Origin: a virus
Strand: one strand, 5' to 3'
IMG/VR virus record: IMGVR_UViG_3300047552_000100
Coordinates: 1 to 37,395 of that record
DNA length: 37,395 nt
Made by a program: the position numbers and the translations under genes. Positions within the stretch are counted from its first letter, which is position 1. Each line of letters opens with the position of its first letter. Below are positions 12,956 to 14,756 of this stretch, in pieces. The notes beneath the pieces are model-generated. The model searched no databases. It was given only the letters and a program-made list of their open reading frames with translations, and had not been told where the DNA came from.

Positions 12956-13443
12956 GGTTTCTCCTTCATTGCGGCGTCGATGTGTTCGTCGAGAGTCAGC
13001 TTGCCCGTGTACTCAATCTGGAAGTACGGGTTGTCACGCAGAAACCGATACCGCGCAGCGTCTTTCTCCAGCGCCTCCACAGCAGCAGCGAGGGCGGCAC
13101 GGTGCTTGTCACTCTGGTGTGCGTCAGCGAGAGCCATCCCTCCCCAATAAGTCATCGGCCTGACTTTTTCGTCATAAAGCCCCAACTCTTGGGACATATC
13201 CACCAGCTTTTGCATGGCAGCTTCTGCCCGTTGCACTTCCAACGCCTTCCACCATCCGAAGGCATACGCTGTCTTCTCTGCCTCGGTTTTTGCCTCGTGC
13301 GGTGCTGAGAGCATTGCTTCCCACTGCTCGTCACGGGCGGCGATGATGGCGTGGACAAACGTGAACACGCTCTCTGGTTCGCACCAAGTATTCGCTTCGC
13401 TGATTGCGCGTATCTGCTCATCAGCCATGTCTGCTGGTTTCAC
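12952..13443 (-). CDS. Hypothetical protein, 163 aa
   Basis: I choose the GTG at 13443 because it overlaps the upstream stop (GTGA) and has an AGGGGGG site; a GTG at 13479 is also in frame. The protein is helical and charged, with ISEANTWCEPESVFTFVHAI, a Trp-rich middle (AYAFGWWKALEVQ) and a C-terminal LEKDAARYRFLRDNPYF element. The last is widely seen in short phage accessory proteins I cannot assign. No enzymatic motif. Confidence 0.7.
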   Translation of the reverse strand: MKPADMADEQIRAISEANTWCEPESVFTFVHAIIAARDEQWEAMLSAPHEAKTEAEKTAYAFGWWKALEVQRAEAAMQKLVDMSQELGLYDEKVRPMTYWGGMALADAHQSDKHRAALAAAVEALEKDAARYRFLRDNPYFQIEYTGKLTLDEHIDAAMKEKP

Positions 13444-13649
13444 GATGCTGCCCCCCTGTTGCGTATCTGCTCTGCACACTGCTTTGCTGCCACGCCTGCG
13501 TAATTCACATTACTTGCGTCAGATAACTCATCACACACTTGAGCGCATTCCTCACGCTCTTCTCTAATAGCCGCAGCTAGGATTGCCTCATGCTCTGCAA
13601 CTGTCATGCAGAGAATCCCATCTACATTCCTGACAAACTTTGGTGTCAT
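13440..13649 (-). CDS. Hypothetical protein, 69 aa
   Basis: A short soluble protein with the pattern EAILAAAIREEREECAQVCD followed by AAKQCAEQIRNRG. This REERxxCAxVC...CAxxIR layout is very common in small uncharacterised phage proteins. The ATG is flush with the methyltransferase stop (13650) and overlaps the stop of the second frame at that locus (ATGA). Its own stop overlaps the next GTG. Function unknown. Confidence 0.72.
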   Translation of the reverse strand: MTPKFVRNVDGILCMTVAEHEAILAAAIREEREECAQVCDELSDASNVNYAGVAAKQCAEQIRNRGAAS

Positions 13650-14509
13650 TCAGATACCTCCAAGGAGTCTGTAGGCGACTGCTGCCTGGAGCGGGACTTG
13701 GGCATTGCAGAGTCCTTTAAGACGGTGAACCCTATTGGGAATCCCATTAGCCACTCGACCCACGTCGGATTCAGTAGTCCACCAATTGCTGAGTTGTCCA
13801 ATATCGCAATCTTTGTCTCTAGGTTTGAATGCCCCAACCTTTCGAACTTCCCCGTCCTCATATAGACTTTGTGGTTCCTGCTCTCCCCCTGCGCGGCCCT
13901 TGGGGTTGGGAAAAGTTGCACAAATCTCCCTATCGTGTCCATCTGAATCTTCCCATCTCGTATCCTGGGCTTTTTCCCATCCTTGTAATCTCGCGTTGTT
14001 GGAGTAGGTACAAAGTGCAAACCATCTATCTCTGTGGTGAGCCGCCCCACAATCGGAAGCTCGTAGGCAAAGCCATTCAGAGTCATACCCGAGCGCGGCA
14101 AGGTCTGCCAGGACTGTTCCGAGTCCGTTAGAAACGATTGCTGAGACGTTTTCCAAGAACAACTGCTTTGGTCGAACCACGCCAGCGATGCGGAGGACTT
14201 CACGGTAGAGGCCACTTCGCGTTTCCGGGCCAACGCCTGCCTGTTTTCCGGCAGTGCTAATGTCCTGGCAAGGGAATCCCGCATGAATGATGTCCACGAC
14301 TCCGGTGTACTCGGATGGATCAAACAATCGAACGTCCCCTTCCCACACTCGCAAGCCTGGAAACCATCCGTCTGCTGCTCGTTCTCTGAGGACTTGGCAG
14401 GCATATTTGTCCCATTCCACAGCGACAACTGGGGTGTGTCCAAGGATTTTGTCGGCAAGGAGGCCACCTCCATGTCCTGCGAATAAATGCATTGAGGTTC
14501 GCATTTCAC
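13646..14509 (-). CDS. Second open frame across dcm gene (287 aa), possible overlapping gene
   Basis: A same-strand frame shifted by one base from the C5 methyltransferase is open over its whole length and beyond both ends. It starts with GTG overlapping the upstream stop (GTGA) and ends overlapping the next start (ATGA), exactly like undoubted genes of this operon. Its product contains SLAWFDQSSCSWKTS, LPRSGMTLNGFAYELP, a VPTPTTRDYKDG segment and LNPTWVEWLMGFPIGFT near the C-terminus. From memory these resemble a family of uncharacterised phage and bacterial proteins with SWxTS, RSGM, PTPT and VEWLMGFP motifs. It has no MTase catalytic motifs. It may be a true overprinted gene or a recurrent shadow of dcm; I cannot tell which. 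Confidence 0.4.
   Translation of the reverse strand: MKCEPQCIYSQDMEVASLPTKSLDTPQLSLWNGTNMPAKSSENEQQTDGFQACECGKGTFDCLIHPSTPESWTSFMRDSLARTLALPENRQALARKREVASTVKSSASLAWFDQSSCSWKTSQQSFLTDSEQSWQTLPRSGMTLNGFAYELPIVGRLTTEIDGLHFVPTPTTRDYKDGKKPRIRDGKIQMDTIGRFVQLFPTPRAAQGESRNHKVYMRTGKFERLGHSNLETKIAILDNSAIGGLLNPTWVEWLMGFPIGFTVLKDSAMPKSRSRQQSPTDSLEVSE
13650..14504 (-). CDS. dcm: DNA (cytosine-5) methyltransferase
   Basis: From the ATG at 14504 the 284-aa enzyme has the C5-MTase motifs in order: I (HLFAGHGGG, residues 6-14), II (AVEWDKYA), IV with the catalytic Cys79 (GFPCQDIS), VI (LENV, 117-120), VIII (AAHHRDRW), and a C-terminal IX/X region (GIPNRVHRLKGLCNAQVP, with CN in place of the usual GN). It would methylate cytosine in phage DNA and likely protect it from host restriction. 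No cognate nuclease is next to it, so it is an orphan. The short target-recognition region lies at about 175-240. It starts one base after the membrane peptide stop and ends flush with the next gene. The same DNA is open in a second frame. Confidence 0.9.
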   Translation of the reverse strand: MRTSMHLFAGHGGGLLADKILGHTPVVAVEWDKYACQVLRERAADGWFPGLRVWEGDVRLFDPSEYTGVVDIIHAGFPCQDISTAGKQAGVGPETRSGLYREVLRIAGVVRPKQLFLENVSAIVSNGLGTVLADLAALGYDSEWLCLRASDCGAAHHRDRWFALCTYSNNARLQGWEKAQDTRWEDSDGHDREICATFPNPKGRAGGEQEPQSLYEDGEVRKVGAFKPRDKDCDIGQLSNWWTTESDVGRVANGIPNRVHRLKGLCNAQVPLQAAVAYRLLGGI

Positions 14510-14601
14510 TTAAACAACCTTTCCAGCAGCCAATCGCCCACATAGTTCATAAGCACAACAATCGCTACACCTGCACAGAATCCGAGAATGAAGCCGATCA
14601 T
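14506..14601 (-). CDS. 31-aa single-helix membrane peptide
   Basis: The ATG at 14601 overlaps the upstream stop (ATGA) and follows AGGGGGCTGAA. The 31-aa product has a membrane helix (IGFILGFCAGVAIVVLM) and a short amphipathic tail (NYVGDWLLERLF). The stop overlaps the GTG of the second frame at the methyltransferase locus. Its role is unknown; single-pass micro-proteins in early operons often modulate host membrane functions or superinfection. Confidence 0.65.
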   Translation of the reverse strand: MIGFILGFCAGVAIVVLMNYVGDWLLERLFK

Positions 14602-14756
14602 TTCAGCCCCCTGCGGTATTCGTTCAGCAACTCGCGTGCGGCGCTCACCTGGTGCTGCAGAGCAACGTTCTGCTGCAGCAAGTCCTGGCACAGCTTCACC
14701 AGTTGCGCGTGGCTCCAGCTAGGCACAGAGGCCAGCTTCTTCTCAAGGTCTTTCAC
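14598..14756 (-). CDS. Hypothetical coiled-coil protein, 52 aa
   Basis: The GTG at 14756 overlaps the stop of the zinc-ribbon gene (GTGA) and has an AAAGGGC site, so I prefer it to the GTG at 14801. The product (KDLEKKLASVPSWSHAQLVK, then a helix LLQQNVALQHQVSAARELL) is helical and likely dimeric. No known family. Confidence 0.65.
   Translation of the reverse strand: MKDLEKKLASVPSWSHAQLVKLCQDLLQQNVALQHQVSAARELLNEYRRGLK

Follow-up and report, generated by a model that had tools for sequence, protein, structure and literature searches.

A putative recognition subunit overprinted on a phage C5 cytosine DNA methyltransferase gene

The window, i.e. the whole stretch of DNA that was analysed, is a 37,395-base virus record in which an integrase, a helicase and a Cas4-like exonuclease are encoded close to a C5 methyltransferase locus. 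Two frames on the same strand are open across this locus, dcm (frame 0) and a frame shifted by one base (+1), referred to here as ALT. The features are as follows.

13650 to 14504, minus strand: dcm (frame 0), 284 amino acids, C5 methyltransferase motifs I-VIII and X; proposed alpha (catalytic) subunit
13646 to 14509, minus strand: ALT (frame +1 to dcm), 287 amino acids, GTG start; proposed beta (recognition) subunit
14506 to 14619, minus strand: upstream 37-residue ORF, the TGA of which overlaps the ALT start (GTGA); weak match to phrog_3958
13440 to 13649, minus strand: downstream 69-residue ORF, the ATG of which overlaps the ALT stop (ATGA); without a PHROG match
14518 to 14524, minus strand: SD-like GGAAAGG, of putative role, 8 nt before the ALT GTG and 13 nt before the ATG at 14504
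14262 to 14279, minus strand: dcm motif IV, GFPCQD (catalytic Cys); P78, C79 and Q80 invariant in a 104-sequence alignment
14145 to 14153, minus strand: dcm motif VI, ENV; E118 and N119 invariant in the same alignment
14025 to 14033, minus strand: dcm motif VIII, RDR; R158 and R160 invariant in the same alignment
13785 to 13997, minus strand: dcm residues 170-240, a hypervariable linker in the place of the small domain; predicted to be disordered from about residue 180
13659 to 13721, minus strand: dcm motif X helices (RLKGLCNAQVPLQAAVAYRLL region), residues 258-267 and 271-282; consensus LKxLGNAVVP
14045 to 14311, minus strand: ALT N-domain, residues 67-155, over dcm motifs IV-VIII; MRDSLA, SWKTS, RSGMT and AYELP
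13790 to 14011, minus strand: ALT PTP modules, VPTPTTRDYKDG and LFPTPRAAQ, proposed target recognition domain (TRD); T169, P170, P201, T202 and P203 nearly invariant
13724 to 13774, minus strand: ALT LNPTWVEWLMGFPIGFT, proposed motif IX, overlapping dcm VGRVANGIPN; constraint is ALT-dominant

The ALT frame starts at the GTG of a GTGA that also holds the stop codon of the upstream ORF (14508-14506), and its TGA lies within an ATGA that provides the start of the downstream ORF (13649). As ALT starts before and ends after dcm (14509-13646 and 14504-13650, respectively), dcm is completely nested in ALT. A re-reading of the sequence bore out the earlier note on the two open same-strand frames, their coordinates, their motifs and the GTGA/ATGA coupling. 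Close homologues have the same layout, with the ALT start a few nucleotides ahead of the dcm ATG. The dcm start at 14504 is uncertain, since the homologues start at the equivalent of the ATG at 14492 (MHLFAG).

The dcm product matches phrog_363 (4e-55) and the Pfam family DNA_methylase (E = 5e-34), the latter over profile positions 4-179 of 324 only, and carries GFPCQD, ENV and HHRDRW. M.HhaI matches the dcm profile strongly over 12-179 and through a second, sub-threshold stretch only at 294-318, with 180-293 unmatched. The AF2 model of dcm has a pLDDT above 90 over most of residues 1-170 and below 50 for most of 183-250, and was aligned by Foldseek to M.HhaI (327 residues) over about 172 columns. 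No small domain (TRD and motif IX) is predicted by AF2 in the dcm chain, residues 180-255 being disordered, while two confident helices within 258-282 agree with the packing of motif X on the large domain. In the window, motif X has a Cys at residue 266 (13707-13709), where Gly is nearly invariant in the homologues (LCNAQVP, compared with LGNAxVP). As modelled, dcm is a C5 cytosine DNA methyltransferase large domain without the small domain.

The ALT product matches phrog_1008, 'DNA methyltransferase' (7.8e-23), and phrog_26627 (5.4e-7), as do 107 and 106 of 108 ALT members, respectively. Searches with ALT gave no Pfam or NCBIfam family and no significant PDB match. AF2 modelled ALT alone poorly (pLDDT 61, pTM 0.28) and a fold search with this model gave no match in the PDB. 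The N-domain has conserved columns and is almost free of stops in 113 loci. PTP modules are present in nearly all ALT homologues, mostly one to four per protein with a maximum of five, and the motif-IX-like segment (LNPxWVEWLMGFPxGWT) sits exactly where the small domain would be expected to have it.

In the window by itself the open +1 frame is a modest surprise, as 299 of 20,000 synonymous shuffles of dcm (about 1.5%) were free of +1 stops; its persistence among the homologues greatly exceeds what chance would give. The first set of ALT-related loci comprised 8 phage records and 80 from IMG/VR, and in all 88 a dcm-like frame is accompanied by ALT at +1; a search based on dcm returned 73 loci, nearly all with ALT. 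With dcm as the only query, 44 non-redundant homologues were obtained, and their 8,758 core codons (codons 60-250) of ALT held one stop, compared with 143 expected from synonymous shuffling of dcm. In 113 non-redundant loci, dcm codons 60-259 contained 20 +1 stops, compared with about 496 expected; codons 0-39 and from 260 onwards had as many as expected or more, and the +2 frame had no comparable depletion. The shuffles behind these expectations keep the codon usage of each gene and not the relatedness of the loci, which is partly offset by the codon and phase tests described below. These counts support one of the two possibilities raised by the earlier note, that overprinting of dcm-type genes by a partner is common; the note left the nature of the partner unnamed.

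Genes of the dcm type without ALT also exist (Lw1, Kopi and phi3Ts), and their +1 stops, counted in single genes, are as expected. They were taken as negatives because a control from Streptococcus phage P0093 had failed: gp47 had been considered as a ghost frame and the canonical methyltransferase over which it lies as a negative control, and the candidate was dropped when the +1 ORF itself proved to be constrained. Two further controls, of 7 helicase loci and 4 Kopi-like loci, were too small.

The two frames are constrained in different parts of the locus. Under ALT WVEWLMGFP the third bases of dcm codons are near-fixed (GTG 91/95, GGT 94/101, GTG 95/99, GCT 92/94 and GGG 105/108), and the ALT Met is kept where the dcm residue varies between D, N, H and Y. 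Divergent pairs (<45% identity) that share a residue use identical codons 2.6 times as often as expected in motif IX and about 1.0 times in the first 60 codons. The ratio of third- to first-position change (pos3/pos1), taken over 88 nearest-neighbour pairs that are not fully independent, is 2.77 in motifs I-III, 2.05 in IV-VI, 1.50 in VI-VIII, 0.79 in the TRD, 0.49 in IX and 2.54 in X. Amino-acid differences between nearest neighbours are fewer in ALT than in dcm in both the TRD (0.585 vs 0.688) and motif IX (0.195 vs 0.310). Both frames are under purifying selection, and this selection is frame-specific. The earlier note held that frequent ALT-frame stops beside an intact dcm, together with a lack of constraint, would speak against the second frame; the homologues show the opposite on both counts, in the 1 against 143 stops and in the near-fixed bases. 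Its description of VEWLMGFPIG as the alternate reading of dcm VGRVANGIPN is right as to the overlap, but the segment is not merely an alternate reading, as it is motif-IX-like and ALT is the more constrained frame there.

The identity of this segment was traced through actinophage relatives, which keep the canonical order of motifs. In xhp1 a single ORF holds motifs I-VIII, PTP, IX and X, and in Heather, Lilbooboo, Wile, TelAviv and Jumbo ORF1 holds I-VIII and ORF2, in +1, holds PTP, IX and X. The C-terminal part of ORF2 from Heather and Wile matches the canonical methyltransferase PHROG phrog_116 (1e-8 to 5e-8), and the C-terminal part of ALT matches the motif IX region of the actinophage ORF2 (hhalign probability 96.6, E 6.7e-10). 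In profile matches to canonical motif IX, the actinophage ORF2 gave P 0.016, and ALT directly gave the right register with P 0.12, which is not significant. As ALT matches ORF2 and ORF2 matches a canonical methyltransferase PHROG, the ALT C-terminus is probably motif IX with its TRD. Pairs of loci at least 70% identical in motifs I-VIII have a mean identity of 78% there, 19% between VIII and IX and 65% at the C-terminus; most pairs that are 93-97% identical in I-VIII fall to 9-57% between VIII and IX. This drop looks like the pattern left by exchange of recognition modules.

On sequence evidence hundreds of phages and prophages from many bacterial phyla, E. coli prophages among them, share the dcm/ALT arrangement. 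In bacterial and archaeal genomes 295 ALT-encoding stretches were found; this set is biased towards ALT carriers, as it was fetched with the pattern VEWLMG[FW]P. Of the best 80 of the 295, 76 have the catalytic motifs in frame 0, IX in +1 and X in 0, 75 of them exactly as in the window and one with an extra match to X in +1; these 76 come from Proteobacteria, Actinobacteria, Firmicutes, Verrucomicrobia and others. Most records annotate one frame only, and ALT is present in PHROGs and absent from Pfam and NCBIfam. The listings of phrog_1008 and phrog_26627 (the latter as unknown) make no mention of overlap or partnership with phrog_363, and no report of the dcm/ALT overlap was found in the literature searched, which did not extend to the primary papers on M.EcoHK31I.

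Several loci depart from the common layout. The E. coli PT62 prophage (L349) holds a further methyltransferase at 440-1426, distant from the first and likewise overlapped by an ORF in +1; this ORF has PTP modules and LNPAHSRWLMGLP, and the locus is probably another branch of the arrangement. A one-base shift alters the frame bearing the C-terminal parts in L120-L122, L157 and L161, as a real variant or a sequencing error; in L120-L122 frame 0 reads motifs I-VIII and then ALT motif IX. The dcm of L350 (3374-4135, E. coli PCP07014) is annotated as a pseudogene, with an internal stop, and its two frames are broken no more than a few bases apart. In Gordonia phage McKinley (L343, 865-2741) ALT-like matches fall in +1 as well as in +2 of the dcm frame, and each of these carries a methyltransferase annotation. 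Two loci have inserts across which both frames are open: in L079 (1372-3117) the ALT frame reads a LAGLIDADG-like stretch (AGLIDGEG) between VI and VIII, and in L080 (2305-3645) it continues beyond motif IX into an HNH-like Cys/His sequence. These inserts are possible homing-endonuclease invasions.

We consider it probable that the locus encodes a two-chain C5 methyltransferase, the recognition and motif IX subunit being overprinted on the catalytic subunit. Frame 0 would encode the large catalytic domain (motifs I-VIII and X). The product of frame +1 would be a distinct protein made up of an N-domain, at least one PTP module acting as the TRD, and motif IX. The chains would associate, ALT giving the DNA-reading small domain and dcm giving AdoMet binding and the catalytic Cys, and a swap of the VIII-IX cassette would change specificity with both frames staying open. 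On this reading ALT would be translated, would bind dcm and contact the DNA target, and methylation would depend on it. The poor AF2 model of ALT alone, the non-significant direct match of ALT to canonical motif IX and the Cys in motif X of the window count against this reading. The role in the phage is likely to be self-protection from host restriction or the marking of its own DNA.

The strongest alternative, which we nevertheless regard as rather unlikely, is that ALT, though real and overprinted, has an independent function, for example in regulating the methyltransferase or in countering restriction, and is not the recognition subunit. It draws on the canonical C5 methyltransferases of Firmicutes phages, over whose motifs IV-VIII lies a conserved +1 ORF of about 140-190 residues. 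Across 43 such genes this ORF has no stops in codons 60-179, compared with about 240 expected, and third-position change is reduced; it is an ALT N-domain that ends in SLSDILEENVxEKYFLS, and neither PTP modules nor motif IX were found in it (L172 1586-2008, phrog_16143; L259-L338). As the N-domain is kept there over a complete methyltransferase, it has a function beyond supplying the TRD, for which the two-chain model gives no account. The dcm of the window type, however, has no predicted TRD or motif IX, and the motif-IX-like segment of ALT stands at the canonical place, with the swapped cassette exactly there.

A further possibility is that ribosomes translating dcm enter +1 by programmed frameshifting close to motif VIII, so that the +1 C-terminal part becomes fused to the dcm chain. 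This would fit the order and placement of the motifs, which suit a single ancestral chain such as the fused xhp1 protein. We hold it to be improbable, as the lack of stops and the conservation of ALT begin at about dcm codon 60 or earlier, far upstream of any shift point, and the fused chain would be without motif X. ALT also has starts of its own: in clade A a GTG or ATG just upstream of dcm, and in clade B an internal ATG for which SD-like sequences are enriched (40%, compared with 17% in shuffles).

Motif-rich dcm stretches do produce +1 readings of some similarity to ALT, the synonymous shuffles having a median score of 46-65 bits with the ALT profile. That ALT is a ghost frame echoing conserved dcm residues, the other possibility raised by the earlier note for this widely annotated family, is nevertheless refuted by the stops, codon choice and phase. 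The expected stop numbers in Lw1, Kopi and phi3Ts and the cross-validated scores of the real ALT frames (median 154-202 bits), which beat every synonymous shuffle in 113 of 113 loci, also speak against it. The profile test by itself is unspecific, because +2 scores also beat the shuffles, less strongly.

Long genes that overlap on the same strand are a disputed matter in prokaryotes, and annotation usually discards them. The dcm/ALT pair is a deeply conserved overlap in which the statistics separate the frames and the hidden frame has a plausible function, with testable relatives in E. coli prophages and mycobacteriophages. If the two-chain reading is true, a common family of unassigned phage ORFs is explained. 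A 'DNA methyltransferase' annotated in frame 0 only would then probably be without its recognition subunit, and cloning of frame 0 alone may thus yield an inactive enzyme.

M.HhaI and M.HaeIII are monomeric, their single chain including the small domain with TRD and IX (PMC3404938). The window dcm has the same catalytic fold and motifs and, unlike these enzymes, a chain predicted to be without the small domain. M.EcoHK31I (YGGCCR) is a natural two-polypeptide C5 methyltransferase that needs both chains, the larger with motifs I-VIII, X and a predicted TRD and the smaller with IX (PMC3404938). The window would resemble it in having I-VIII and X in the dcm chain and the proposed IX in the other, a likeness that depends on the link of ALT to motif IX through the actinophage relatives, and differs in that TRD-like constraint is in the +1 chain and the dcm linker is disordered. 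For the small chain of M.EcoHK31I, Lee, Kam and Shaw (1995) reportedly described an overlapping reading frame. With the TRD on the other chain, and the comparison being by description and not by sequence, membership of the M.EcoHK31I type is not claimed. M.AquI (CYCGRG), also of two polypeptides, is split before IX-X, its small chain holding IX and X (PMC3404938). A locus on Picosynechococcus pAQ5 (L175), a candidate for M.AquI, was left out of the comparison. The actinophage pairs, e.g. Heather 35/36, are like M.AquI, whereas in the window motif X is in frame 0, with the catalytic motifs.
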